Translations under genes and position numbers: made by a program
The notes under the pieces: model-generated
Databases searched by the model: none
What the model saw: only the letters and a program-made list of their open reading frames with translations
Told to the model about the DNA's origin: nothing
Shown: positions 12,173-16,520 of the stretch, in pieces
Position numbering within the stretch: position 1 is the first letter of the stretch
Layout of the letters: every line of letters begins with the position of its first letter
DNA from: Acidimicrobiia bacterium
Lineage (GTDB): Bacteria; Actinomycetota; Acidimicrobiia; Spongiisociales; ZC4RG35
Reading direction: 5' to 3'
NCBI GenBank assembly: GCA_028285585.1
Contig: JANQOU010000013.1
Coordinates: forward strand, 62,001 to 126,000
Length of the DNA stretch: 64,000 nt

Positions 12173-12544
12173 ATGGAATTCAGAGCTGAGAGTGAATGTG
12201 ATCACAAGCCGGTGTGGGTCGGCCGCGTAGCTCTTGCCGGGTGCGACTCATGTCAGCGAATCGAATGGTTCTCAAACGCTGGGCCCATAGACCCCGCCGA
12301 GGCCATGGCTGCGTTGTTTGGCTCGTACGACCTGGTCGGAACGATGGATGCCCTTGGTGCCCCGACACCGGAAGTGCTGGTCTACAGGCCCCCGAACGGC
12401 CGCAAGCGCCGCAACTTGGACGCTGTCCCCAAGCACGTTTGGCTCAGGGCAGGCCCACATCTCTGGATGTCACACGACGGTGAGGTCTTGCTCCTGGCCC
12501 CAACTCAGGCTCTGCTCTTTGAGAATCTGACCCGCGGTGCTTAG
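12173..12544 (+). CDS. hypothetical protein with CxxC motif
   Basis: A 123-residue protein I do not recognise. Its N-terminal third has an ECDH and a CDSC motif flanking a VGRVALAG strand, a possible single metal-binding knuckle. The rest is mixed alpha/beta with no membrane segment. The start is set by the upstream hexamer at 12160. Its TAG stop overlaps the TAA of the convergent ABC exporter (TTAG, 12541-12544). Confidence 0.6.
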   Translation: MEFRAESECDHKPVWVGRVALAGCDSCQRIEWFSNAGPIDPAEAMAALFGSYDLVGTMDALGAPTPEVLVYRPPNGRKRRNLDAVPKHVWLRAGPHLWMSHDGEVLLLAPTQALLFENLTRGA

Positions 12545-14433
12545 GCGCCAGCTCTCTCAAACTGGGTCTCGTACAGCTCGGAGTAGAGACCACCCTGCTC
12601 GATCAGGCCTTCGTGAGTCCCTCGCTCAACGATACGTCCCTCGTCTAGAACGAGTATCTGATCGGCGCGACGCACCGTCGAGAGCCGATGGGCAATGACT
12701 ATCGATGTTCGCCCCTCGAGAAGAGTCTCCAATGCCTGCTGTATGAGAGCCTCCGACCTCGAGTCAAGATGTGACGTCGCCTCGTCGAGGATCAACACCT
12801 TCGGGTCCTTCAGCAACACCCGGGCAATGGCGATGCGCTGCTTCTCACCCCCGGACAGGCGGTAACCACGCTCACCGACGATGGTCTCGTAGCGGTCGGG
12901 CAGCTTGTCGATCATCTCATCGATGTTCGCCGCCCTGGCTGCTTCTTCGAGTTGCTTCTGAGTGGCGTCCGGCCGGGCATAGCGAAGGTTGGCCGCGATG
13001 GTGTCGTGGAAGAGATAAGTCTCCTGCGTCACCACCCCCACCGTGGCGGCGAGCTCCTCGAGATCCACTTCCCTGACGTCTTTGCCGTCAACTCTCACCG
13101 AGCCGGCGGTTACGTCGTAGAGCCTGGGAAGCAGGTAGGAAATGGTCGTCTTTCCGGCACCCGAAGGGCCGACCAGCGCCACCAGTGAGCCGGGCTCGGC
13201 ATTGAAGTCGATGTCATGAACCGCCCAATCACGAGTTGCCATGTGGCCGACCGAGGCAGTGTCGTCGGTCGTCCCACGCCAGCTGAATCGTTTCACCGCC
13301 TCCAAACCCTCGGGCTCGTCGGTCTGGTATCTGAACGAAACGTCGTCGAATTCCACACGACCAACCGCTGGCCCAAGCGGCAGTGGTTTCTCAGGCGCAG
13401 GGACATCGGTTTCGAGGTCGAGCACCTCGAAGACGCGCTCGAATGAGACCAGGGAAGTGGCGAACTCAACACGTGAGTTGGAGATGGCCGACAGGGGCCC
13501 GTAGAGCTGCGCCAACAGCGTGGAGAACATGACGAGAGCTCCCAGCGAAAGCACTCCGTCGATCACCATCAGCCCGCCGACCCAGAAGACAGTTGCCGTG
13601 CCTACGGCTGAAACGAGGCCCAACGCCGCAAAAAACCCCCGGCCCACCATCGCCCGCCTGATCCCATAGTCTCGGACAAGCGATGCCTGATCGCCGAACT
13701 TGTCACGCTCTTCCCGCCAGCGCCCGAAGAGCCTGATCAAAAGAGCACCGCTGACGTTGAACGCTTCCTGAAGAGTGCCCGACATCTTCGCCTCGTGCTC
13801 CATCTGCTGGGTTGTCACTCGGCGCAGCACCTTGGCGACTCGGCGCGCCGGGATGACAAACAGCGGCAAGGCGGCCACGGCGAGGAGTGTCAATCTCCAC
13901 TCTGTCTGGAGCATGACGACAAGGATCACCACAACCGAGACGACGTTGGAGACGATGGTGACGAACGTCCCCGTTATCGCCTGTTGCGCACCTACGACGT
14001 CGGAGTTGAGCCGGTTCATCAACTCTCCCGTCTTCGTCGCTGTGAAGAACCTCAACGACATCCGCTGAAGGTGAGCGAACAGCTCCTGGCGAAGGTCGAA
14101 GATGATCCCCTCTCCCACTCTCGATGAGAACCATCGCTGGACGACACCGACGATCGCGTTGACCAACGGGACCATGATCATCCCGACTCCGAGAACGGCG
14201 AGCAGACCCAGGTCGCCGCGGGGAAGAGCCTCGTCGACCAGCAACCGGATCAAGATCGCCGGCACCACGGAGAGCGTGGAGATCACGATGATGGTGGCAA
14301 GCATCCCCAGCAAGCCGCGCAGGTAGGGGCGCCCGTAACTCCACACTCGCCGGAGCAGATCGCCGTCTATGTCGGGCCGGTCTTGCTCCTCGTCATACTT
14401 GAGATAGCTCCACCAGCCTCCTGAGTGATAAAT
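12541..14433 (-). CDS. ABC exporter (fused membrane and ATPase domains), probable ATT start
   Basis: A half-transporter of the MsbA/LmrA-like multidrug or lipid exporter family. It has six membrane helices in the first ~330 residues, then an ATPase domain with Walker A GPSGAGKT (about 422-429), signature LSGGEKQR and Walker B VLILDEATS. About 30 extra residues sit between the first ATPase strand and the A-loop region. The first standard start in frame is a GTG at 14346, but the frame continues upstream with a family-like N terminus (GGWWSYLKYDEEQDRP). It begins at ATT (14431-14433), exactly 7 nt after a perfect AGGAGG. I take that ATT as the start (630 aa); GTG 14346 (601 aa) is the alternative. 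Substrate unknown. Confidence 0.9.
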   Translation of the reverse strand: MYHSGGWWSYLKYDEEQDRPDIDGDLLRRVWSYGRPYLRGLLGMLATIIVISTLSVVPAILIRLLVDEALPRGDLGLLAVLGVGMIMVPLVNAIVGVVQRWFSSRVGEGIIFDLRQELFAHLQRMSLRFFTATKTGELMNRLNSDVVGAQQAITGTFVTIVSNVVSVVVILVVMLQTEWRLTLLAVAALPLFVIPARRVAKVLRRVTTQQMEHEAKMSGTLQEAFNVSGALLIRLFGRWREERDKFGDQASLVRDYGIRRAMVGRGFFAALGLVSAVGTATVFWVGGLMVIDGVLSLGALVMFSTLLAQLYGPLSAISNSRVEFATSLVSFERVFEVLDLETDVPAPEKPLPLGPAVGRVEFDDVSFRYQTDEPEGLEAVKRFSWRGTTDDTASVGHMATRDWAVHDIDFNAEPGSLVALVGPSGAGKTTISYLLPRLYDVTAGSVRVDGKDVREVDLEELAATVGVVTQETYLFHDTIAANLRYARPDATQKQLEEAARAANIDEMIDKLPDRYETIVGERGYRLSGGEKQRIAIARVLLKDPKVLILDEATSHLDSRSEALIQQALETLLEGRTSIVIAHRLSTVRRADQILVLDEGRIVERGTHEGLIEQGGLYSELYETQFERAGA

Positions 14434-14538: not shown

Positions 14539-15300
14539 CTACGACGGTGATGGGACAAGATCGGCCAAGGCAACCGAAGACGCCACCATGTCCCGCAGAG
14601 CATCTACCGAAACGAAAGCCCGGCCAAACAACTCGTATCTGTAGGCAGGATCGAACCACACCAGAGTGAGACCCTGATTGGAGCTGAGCGACCACACCGG
14701 CCTGTCATCCAACTCGAGGATCTCGCAGCCGACGGTTGTGGCGTCGGCGAAACGGGCACAAGACAAGTCTTCGGTCGAGTCGGCGATCTCCAGCGCGGTC
14801 TCCTGATCTGTCGACACTGTGAGCACAGCCATCTGAGCGACAGATCGTGACCTCGAGTAGGGCACAGCGGACCATATGCCGAATGCGGCACTCGGCTCAT
14901 CAGACAGCTCGCCCGAGTTCTCTATCACCAACTGCGACGAGACCCACTCGGCGCCGTTGGGAGCAGTCGCCGGAAACTGCACCCCGGGCAAGGCCACTGC
15001 TATCTCCGTCCTGCTCGCCTGGATGAACCGATCACCCTCACGGCGACCAAAGACTTCGCTCAACAACAGAGATTGCTCAGACAAGTTTTCAGTCACTATG
15101 TCGTCGTTCGACCACTGCAACTCGGCTACATCGATGGATGCCGGCAAGGTCACCACAACCGCTGCCGTCGTGGTGACCTCCGGTTCGTTGATCCAGTCGG
15201 AGCTGCGATCACCGAGAGCATCGAGCGGCGAATCACCACAGCCGGCGACAGCCAGGACGACGACAACAGCGAGCAGAGACCGCAATCTCAGTTGCGACAA
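14539..15300 (-). CDS. putative lipoprotein of unknown function
   Basis: A 253-residue secreted protein. It has a short basic N terminus, a hydrophobic stretch and a lipobox ending AVAGC with the lipidated Cys at residue 21. After a Thr-rich linker, the mature part is mixed beta with two or three further cysteines (the CARFADATTVGCEIL pair could form a disulphide). No family recognised. It starts with TTG; AAAGAGG lies immediately upstream. It is divergent from the AroQ-hydrolase gene. Confidence 0.7.
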   Translation of the reverse strand: MSQLRLRSLLAVVVVLAVAGCGDSPLDALGDRSSDWINEPEVTTTAAVVVTLPASIDVAELQWSNDDIVTENLSEQSLLLSEVFGRREGDRFIQASRTEIAVALPGVQFPATAPNGAEWVSSQLVIENSGELSDEPSAAFGIWSAVPYSRSRSVAQMAVLTVSTDQETALEIADSTEDLSCARFADATTVGCEILELDDRPVWSLSSNQGLTLVWFDPAYRYELFGRAFVSVDALRDMVASSVALADLVPSPS

Positions 15301-15408: not shown

Positions 15409-15435
15409 GTGAGACATCTCCCCAGAGCCACATGA
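15409..15435 (+). CDS. possible leaderless 8-codon upstream ORF
   Basis: GTG at 15409 is followed by seven codons (peptide MRHLPRAT) and a TGA that overlaps the ATG of the AroQ fusion (ATGA, 15432-15435). The -10 hexamer 7 nt upstream would make this GTG the 5' end of the mRNA. It would then deliver ribosomes to a gene with no recognisable ribosome-binding site of its own. Confidence 0.3.
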   Translation: MRHLPRAT

Positions 15436-16520
15436 AGCTTCTCGTCATCAACGGCCCCAACCTGAACCTTCTGGGCAAGCGAGAGCCTGAGATCTACGGC
15501 AGTGAGACCCTCGAGGACCTCGAAGAGCGGCTGGAGCGTTGGGCAACCTCTCTCGACATCGAGCTGGAGGCGACTCAGACAAATCACGAGGGGGTGATCA
15601 TCGACCACATCCAGCGATCTGACCTGGACGGAATCGTGCTCAACGCCGGTGGGTACACGCACACCTCCCGCGCCATCGCCGACGCGATAGCGGCGGTCAG
15701 CACTCCAGTGGTCGAAGTGCACATCTCGAACATCAGGGATCGGGAGCCATGGAGGGCCATCTCGGTCATCGCAGACGTCTGCGTCTCCTCCATCTACGGC
15801 AGAGGCTTGACCGGATACCGGGACGCCATGCGTCATCTGGTCAACAGGGCGGCCGTGCCGTTCGAGACCGTTCGCTATGGGCCTGACGTCGACAACGTGG
15901 CAGACGTCCGCGTAGGTGGCGACGCCTTGGCCGTTCTGGTGCACGGCGGCTTCTGGCGGGATGAGTGGACGAGAGACACAATGGAATCACTTGCCGTCGA
16001 TCTAGCCCAGCACGACGTGACCTCGGTCAACGTCGAGTACAGGCGACTAGGGCAAGGCGGTGGTTGGCCGGCGACACCCGACGACGTGCTCAGCGCACTG
16101 GATCACATCCCCAACCTCGACCTGAGCCACCAAAGGCTGACACTGATTGGCCATTCGGCAGGCGGGCAACTGGCGATGTGGGCTTCCTGGCGATCGTCGA
16201 CGCCGGTCAATCAGGTGGTTGCGATGTCGCCGGTGGTCGACCTGGAGCGACATGCCCGGTCACGGATGTTTGGAGCCGCGGAAGCCCAGGCCCTGATCGA
16301 TCAGGGTGCGCCCAATCGCATCTCAGCAGGTGGGGTACCCACTCTCCTGGTTCATGGCGAGGATGACCGAGCAGTGCCGATTGGTCACTCAGCCGACCTG
16401 GCCCGTAGCGAAGGGCTGGAGCTCCTGACCACCTCCAGCGGCCATTTCGAGCTTCTCGATCCTCAGGAAGAGCACTGGCCGAAGGTGAGAGCACTGATCC
16501 TCGGCGAAACCTCCACCTGA
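15432..16520 (+). CDS. aroQ: type II 3-dehydroquinate dehydratase fused to an alpha/beta hydrolase
   Basis: A 362-residue two-domain protein. Residues 1-145 are a complete type II dehydroquinase: NGPNLNLLGKREPEIYG with catalytic Tyr22 and a nearby Arg, NAGGYTHTS (Asn71), EVHISN with catalytic His97, and Arg104/Arg108. This enzyme dehydrates 3-dehydroquinate to 3-dehydroshikimate in the shikimate pathway. Residues about 165-360 are an alpha/beta hydrolase: HGGFW oxyanion region at 171, nucleophile Ser242 in GHSAG, Asp311/312 in HGEDD and His338 in SSGHFE. This half resembles small esterases or formamidases. One continuous frame with no stop links the two, and I see no frameshift. The hydrolase substrate is unknown. 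Confidence 0.9.
   Translation: MKLLVINGPNLNLLGKREPEIYGSETLEDLEERLERWATSLDIELEATQTNHEGVIIDHIQRSDLDGIVLNAGGYTHTSRAIADAIAAVSTPVVEVHISNIRDREPWRAISVIADVCVSSIYGRGLTGYRDAMRHLVNRAAVPFETVRYGPDVDNVADVRVGGDALAVLVHGGFWRDEWTRDTMESLAVDLAQHDVTSVNVEYRRLGQGGGWPATPDDVLSALDHIPNLDLSHQRLTLIGHSAGGQLAMWASWRSSTPVNQVVAMSPVVDLERHARSRMFGAAEAQALIDQGAPNRISAGGVPTLLVHGEDDRAVPIGHSADLARSEGLELLTTSSGHFELLDPQEEHWPKVRALILGETST

Follow-up and report, generated by a model that had tools for sequence, protein, structure and literature searches.

Organization of the Fused Gene

The window analyzed here is a 64,000-nucleotide stretch (G000:C10:62001-126000) of a 2.59-Mb genome, G000, which is 97% complete. Positions 15432-16520 of its forward strand form a single open reading frame of 362 amino acids, running from ATG to TGA without an internal stop, in which a type II 3-dehydroquinate dehydratase (AroQ) is joined to an α/β-hydrolase (Table 1). 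The protein has two Pfam matches, DHquinase_II over residues 2-136 and α/β-hydrolase families over approximately residues 166-355. The fusion had been noticed in a preliminary description of the sequence and is borne out by the reading frame, by Pfam and by the NCBIfam model TIGR01088. The catalytic residues listed in that description (Y22, H97, R104, R108, S242, D312 and H338) are right, with the exception that D311, offered there as a second choice for the catalytic acid, is variable and the acid is D312. Residue conservation was counted over 69 rows of fused orthologues. AroQ is a classic stand-alone enzyme, studied as an inhibitor target, and assembles as a dodecamer; a literature search covering papers outside subscription returned no account of the fusion, nor of any pseudo-dehydroquinase.

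Table 1. Coordinates of the fused gene, its domains and conserved residues, and its syntenic neighbors in the window
Feature	Position	Strand	Basis
Fused gene, type II 3-dehydroquinate dehydratase (AroQ) plus α/β-hydrolase, 362 aa	15432..16520	+	Single ORF; Pfam and NCBIfam; fusion in about 100 of 138 order genomes
AroQ domain, residues 1-142	15432..15857	+	PF01220, E 6.7e-54; sole dehydroquinase of G000; model match 1gqo
AroQ active-site lid, R17 (15480-15482) to catalytic Y22 (15495-15497)	15480..15497	+	Both in 99% of 69 fused rows
AroQ catalytic/substrate residues H97 (15720-15722), R104 (15741-15743), R108 (15753-15755)	15720..15755	+	69/69 fused rows
AroQ GRG motif and C-terminal helix, residues 123-142	15798..15857	+	Helix 127-141 in model; retained in pseudo-AroQ domains
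α/β-Hydrolase domain, residues 143-362, kynurenine-formamidase-like subfamily	15858..16517	+	Pfam; 4e11 profile match; homologues in TDO-kynureninase operons
R160, at domain junction	15909..15911	+	Invariant in 69/69 active fusions
Oxyanion-hole motif HGGFW (HGGxW), residues 171-175	15942..15956	+	G172, G173, W175 in 69/69
Nucleophile S242 (GHSAGG)	16155..16157	+	91% of 69 rows; Gly in 5/5 sampled g53 rows
Catalytic acid D312	16365..16367	+	97% of 69 rows
Catalytic H338	16443..16445	+	97% of 69 rows
Divergent neighbor, lipoprotein-like (CGDxPLxALGxRSSDWL), syntenic block around aroQ	14539..15300	-	Conserved beside aroQ across order
ABC transporter, membrane and ATPase, syntenic block around aroQ	12541..14346	-	PF00664, PF00005

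The AlphaFold2 (AF2) model of the fused protein, built from an eight-sequence alignment (pLDDT 73, pTM 0.64), is too weak for the domain interface or R160 to be read. It places hydrolase strands 144-149 and 155-160 directly after the AroQ helix, indicating that there is no flexible linker. The AroQ half of the model superposes on the solved AroQ chain (PDB code 1gqo) with a Z score of 21.8 and an rmsd of 1.5 over 137 aligned residues, and the hydrolase half superposes on thioesterase, feruloyl esterase and lipase chains with Z scores of about 20-21. The absence of a kynurenine formamidase chain from the best 50 VIA-align matches listed is uninformative either way. Scans of viral contigs returned a few AroQ and distant hydrolases, whose sole use was to add depth to the structure alignment.

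The AroQ Half Has a Complete Catalytic Set

The AroQ half passes both PF01220 (181.8 bits against a cut-off of 23.3) and the aroQ equivalog TIGR01088 (175.9 against 169.85 bits). The fold of residues 1-142 is that of the known type II enzymes, with the same lid and the same active-site residues Y22, N71, H77, D84, E95, H97, R104 and R108. In addition to the invariant residues given in Table 1, N71, H77, D84 and E95 and the GRG motif (residues 123-125) are invariant over the 69 fused rows. The known enzymes are stand-alone proteins of about 145 amino acids, whereas the fused AroQ carries the hydrolase at its C terminus. In G000 the fused copy is the only class II dehydroquinase (PF01220 match), and a class I dehydroquinase (PF01487) was not found. 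Because the catalytic residues are complete and fully conserved and no other dehydroquinase is present, the N-terminal half is predicted to be a working type II dehydroquinase that provides the only 3-dehydroquinate dehydratase step of the cell.

Distribution and Evolution of the Fusion

The family to which the window genome belongs is represented by 34 genomes from 18 genera, and the fusion is present in 32 of them, the exceptions being G012 and G022; some of these fusions are cut by contig ends, and full-length matches have identities of 42-61%. Across the order, which is made up of uncultured actinobacteria, it occurs in about 100 of the 138 genomes, in families f1, f2, f3, f5 and f7 and in most of f8. 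Stand-alone AroQ within the order is seen in f6, the f4 genomes with a match, genus g43 and part of g60, and in the rest of the class the other families have stand-alone AroQ, except for f46. No class II dehydroquinase at all was found in G012 or in G022 (98% complete). Most of the genomes compared are incomplete drafts and absences are accordingly soft.

The preliminary description had allowed that the fusion might stem from a sequencing error, with the orthologues being two separate genes. This explanation is rejected by the orthologues, which have the same single reading frame, and the wider proposition that two genes have been read as one through an artefact of assembly or annotation has a negligible probability. 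Nothing in the window speaks for it, and its one point of support is an in-frame TAA inside the AroQ half of G017, against which stand the uninterrupted frames of about 100 independent genomes.

The genomic surroundings are the same for fused and unfused AroQ, with an ABC transporter, the lipoprotein-like gene, a lipoyl-ligase-family gene (PF21948), aroQ and a class I/II aminotransferase; an orthologue of the lipoprotein-like neighbor has no Pfam family. As the locus is syntenic whether or not AroQ is fused, gain or loss of the hydrolase occurred at the locus itself. In a phylogeny of AroQ, the fused sequences and most of the stand-alone AroQ from within the order form one group (support 82) that is separate from most other stand-alone sequences (97). 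One stand-alone AroQ of g60 nests among fused ones (98) and represents a secondary loss of the hydrolase. The fused AroQ of G630, a genome of family f84 that does not belong to the class, is placed with two f1 sequences (98), which suggests a transfer of the fusion gene between lineages. When all fusions are kept in one group, the resulting hydrolase tree passes the AU test (p-AU 0.54) and exceeds the unconstrained search by 4.25 log units; with the backbone of this tree poorly resolved, a single origin is not rejected and not proven either. A hydrolase without an AroQ part in G585 (L215:1824-2468) branches inside the f1-type fused group and is a possible secondary loss of AroQ.

Family and Predicted Substrate of the Hydrolase Half

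In Pfam, the hydrolase half matches BD-FAE best (E 8.1e-14), followed by Abhydrolase_1 (E 1.4e-10). The H171-G-G-F-W175 motif and the S242-D312-H338 triad are present as in the α/β-type kynurenine formamidases, and the sequence belongs to an actinobacterial subfamily defined by the motifs HGGxW and EYRRxGxGGGWP. An alignment (A2) shows the HGGFW, EYRR and GGGWP motifs to be common to the fused hydrolase and its Streptomyces relatives. The A2 profile matches the solved kynurenine formamidase of the animal AFMID kind (PDB code 4e11) with E 2.7e-8 over profile positions 2-209 of 214, and it also matches many esterases, some of them better, the best being a carboxylesterase (PDB code 9x6a) with E 5.9e-48. 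The fused hydrolase shares the HGGxW oxyanion motif and the Ser-Asp-His triad with 4e11, but it is distant in sequence, is joined to AroQ and often occurs where no tryptophan 2,3-dioxygenase (TDO) is found, its formamidase activity being putative. The carboxylesterase 9x6a, BD-FAE and the feruloyl esterases have the same fold and triad without AroQ, and their function was assigned in other work.

In a search of the phylum with A2 the hydrolase was found in 59 of 396 genomes, and many lineages have it without any AroQ domain, so that AroQ is not required for the hydrolase fold. Two stand-alone members of the subfamily (L196:4465-5490 and L178:1468-2643) have twin-arginine lipoprotein-like N termini, and such relatives may be exported. 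The cyclase-type bacterial kynurenine formamidase KynB (TIGR03035), which belongs to a different fold family from the fused hydrolase, scores above the cut-off in none of the 138 order genomes, with the best match in G000 at 31 against 223 bits.

From the subfamily, the HGGxW motif and the gene context of relatives, the hydrolase half is predicted to be a serine hydrolase of the N-formylkynurenine-formamidase type, as opposed to a quinate or shikimate esterase, and N-formyl compounds are its best-supported substrate class. It may instead be a carboxylesterase of the BD-FAE/HSL-like type, general or acting on xenobiotics, without a fixed connection to kynurenine, in a fusion that became established once by chance in an ancestor and persisted as AroQ is essential. 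This alternative is possible but rather unlikely; BD-FAE as the best family, 9x6a as the closest solved sequence and the many fusion-bearing genomes without TDO agree with it, whereas the conservation of the triad and HGGxW across very divergent fusions and the repeated location of relatives beside TDO, kynureninase and aminobenzoyl-CoA-type clusters do not. It also leaves unexplained the retention of degenerate AroQ domains in genomes where AroQ is redundant (see below).

Relatives of the Hydrolase in Tryptophan and Kynurenine Gene Clusters

Two stand-alone relatives from Streptomyces, found by genome scan, are 40 and 36% identical to the fused hydrolase, and in both loci the hydrolase is the third gene after TDO and a kynureninase, the latter confirmed by TIGR01814. 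The same operon is present in two more Streptomyces-like genomes (L182 and L200). The third gene of this operon (L047, L048 and L182, 36-40% identity) is alike over the whole hydrolase and has EYRRxGxGGGWP and HGGFW in common with the fusion, but it has no AroQ domain and sits in a catabolic operon, whereas the fusion sits at the aroQ locus. In G740 a kynureninase adjoins the hydrolase relative. For these relatives the genomic link to TDO and kynureninase is seen in Streptomyces, in G503 and in f94, and there is an indirect one in f91.

In G503 the gene order is as in Streptomyces, with a TDO (PF03301, E 3.4e-100), then a kynureninase-like gene and, directly after it, a hydrolase that carries a degenerate AroQ-like (pseudo-AroQ) domain. 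In f91 the pseudo-AroQ-hydrolase is the last gene of a cluster encoding a salicylyl-/aminobenzoyl-CoA-type monooxygenase (of the salicylyl-CoA hydroxylase family), an acyl-CoA dehydrogenase, an SDR, an enoyl-CoA hydratase and RidA, a gene set that presumably corresponds to the 2-aminobenzoyl-CoA route of anthranilate breakdown. Its enoyl-CoA hydratase and RidA are 66 and 46% identical, respectively, to their counterparts in the G000 TDO cluster. An acyl-CoA dehydrogenase gene abuts the pseudo-AroQ-hydrolase in f46 and in f98 (G649).

The TDO cluster of G000 (L121, G000:C4:176500-190000) comprises a benzoate-CoA-ligase-family gene, an SDR, TDO, a class V aminotransferase-like gene, a RidA-like gene and an enoyl-CoA hydratase; the aminotransferase-like gene, for which there is no NCBIfam match, is read as kynureninase-like. 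A ParB-like gene also lies inside the cluster. Two kynureninases scoring above the cut-off are encoded outside it, and the fused gene is not adjacent to it. No formamidase gene was seen in the cluster and, as the order also lacks a KynB above the cut-off, the fused hydrolase is a candidate for the missing formamidase step in genomes like G000.

TDO is present in 36 of the 138 order genomes, 30 of the 102 that bear the fusion and 6 of the 36 that do not, and with genomes counted as independent and phylogeny ignored there is no association (Fisher p 0.19). A universal role of the fusion in tryptophan catabolism is excluded as a general rule by the 72 of 102 fusion genomes in which TDO is absent, and formamidase action is thus not its conserved role everywhere, at least with tryptophan dioxygenase as the source; the substrate of the hydrolase may have drifted. 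Short TDO-family proteins of about 240 amino acids, matching PF03301 in two pieces, occur in G050, G052, G057, G058, G111, G021 and G022, and differ from family f1 TDO, which is full-length.

The gene contexts also bear on the suggestion in the preliminary description that the hydrolase acts on an ester of quinate or shikimate and passes the product to AroQ. The observation made there that the neighborhood contains no further shikimate gene is borne out over the 18 main ORFs scanned (0-44 kb). Chlorogenic acid esterases match the hydrolase half weakly in sequence, and both these and cinnamoyl/feruloyl esterases turn up in the sequence and fold comparisons, which speaks for such a channel. Against it, no quinate or shikimate gene was found among the inspected neighbors of the fused, pseudo-fused and stand-alone homologues, the gene neighbors of the relatives point to tryptophan, kynurenine and anthranilate breakdown, those relatives that lack AroQ are encoded in kynurenine operons, and a channeled product would be useless to a dead AroQ. 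The channel, lacking supporting gene context, is rejected as very improbable.

Probable Loss of Either Activity within the Fusion

In f46, f91, f69 (g315) and f98 the hydrolase is preceded in the same ORF by the pseudo-AroQ domain. Most of these domains are recognized by the fused-AroQ profile with E values from 7e-10 to 0.01, those of G562 and G572 being identified by position and motif only, while the Pfam model gives E 0.0054 (L213) and 0.28 (L183), both below the cut-off. With hhalign the score of a profile of nine pseudo-AroQ domains is 62 with stand-alone AroQ (E 6e-10) and 108 with fused AroQ (E 4e-18), compared with at most 15.8 for column shuffles. Each of the four subfamilies is significant alone, and the match persists without the GRG helix. 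The lid with R17 and Y22 is deleted, and H97, R104, R108 and the other residues are never kept as a complete catalytic set, indicating that these domains, unlike the known AroQ enzymes, are probably catalytically dead. The GRG motif and the C-terminal helix are kept. The domain in G503 is intermediate, with His and Arg still at the H97 and R104 sites. Shrunken N-terminal remnants of about 100 residues precede the hydrolase in G562 (L192:261-1427) and G649 (L193:4789-5817), at the far end of the decay series.

The dN/dS values of the pseudo-AroQ domains are 0.35-0.57, indicating that they are maintained under purifying selection. A separate intact AroQ is present in 10 of the 12 genomes with such a domain (G285, G474, G683, G675, G744, G737, G730, G562, G649 and G503) and was not found in the remaining two, G301 and G572, both of which are incomplete. 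G620 and G630, from outside the order, have an intact fused AroQ and no other. G017 is the only order genome with a separate second AroQ, which is of a foreign type, and its fused AroQ has the in-frame TAA at the position of E53 (loci L091:5329-6930 and L068:5775-6305), which could be an assembly error rather than real decay.

The reverse loss is seen in genus g53 (G115-G119), where GHG or GCG replaces GHS and the Asp and His of the triad are kept. The five sampled fusions (L037, L038, L044, L103 and L104) account for the true exceptions at S242, the others being incomplete rows. No TDO match was found in this genus. The domain lacking the serine is under purifying selection, with dN/dS values around 0.1-0.3 that resemble those of other genera (NG86 estimates, rough at high GC), and the g53 protein appears to be a pseudo-hydrolase on an intact AroQ. 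Either activity can thus go without the two domains being separated, in agreement with AroQ having a structural role.

This also bears on a metabolic coupling in which AroQ, acting toward chorismate, anthranilate and tryptophan, and a formamidase, acting in the conversion of tryptophan through kynurenine to anthranilate, are fused so that synthesis and breakdown are cross-regulated. Both halves would belong to aromatic amino acid metabolism if the formamidase reading holds, and G000 has TDO, kynureninase and the benzoate-CoA-ligase-family gene. The separate loss of each activity from a fusion that stays, in the pseudo-AroQ families and at S242 in g53, the frequent absence of TDO and the lack of any visible regulatory domain make this an improbable explanation.

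Discussion

The protein is best explained as a bifunctional enzyme composed of AroQ and a formamidase-type hydrolase, in which the AroQ half doubles as the structural assembly domain of the hydrolase, a reading to which we assign a probability of about 0.5. The N-terminal half would supply the only 3-dehydroquinate dehydratase step of the cell and, with the hydrolase joined directly to the last AroQ helix, each AroQ oligomer would carry hydrolases. AroQ would in this way have a second, structural role, that of keeping the hydrolase in an oligomeric assembly. In cells where the reaction is catalyzed by another AroQ, selection would act on this structural role alone and the fused AroQ would decay to a dead but retained domain. 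The same structural role would also account for the retention of a hydrolase domain that has lost its serine. The preliminary description had named as its other option an unrelated substrate, with AroQ used as a scaffold; this is favored over the ester channel by the purifying selection on dead AroQ domains kept beside a second AroQ, the scaffold itself being a putative function.

In evolutionary terms, we put at roughly even odds that a kynurenine-formamidase-type hydrolase has recruited a type II dehydroquinase as its assembly domain, with the steps visible in living genomes. The series would begin with the bifunctional protein as sole AroQ, as in the order of the window genome and in f84, and proceed through a copy damaged after the arrival of a foreign AroQ (G017) to dead but retained domains (f46, f91, f69 and f98) and to the remnant of about 100 residues (G562 and G649).

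Together, a bifunctional AroQ present across a clade and a graded series leading to dead domains would constitute a natural case of an essential enzyme turning into a structural part. The findings also propose an α/β-type formamidase for tryptophan breakdown in actinobacteria in which no KynB is found.
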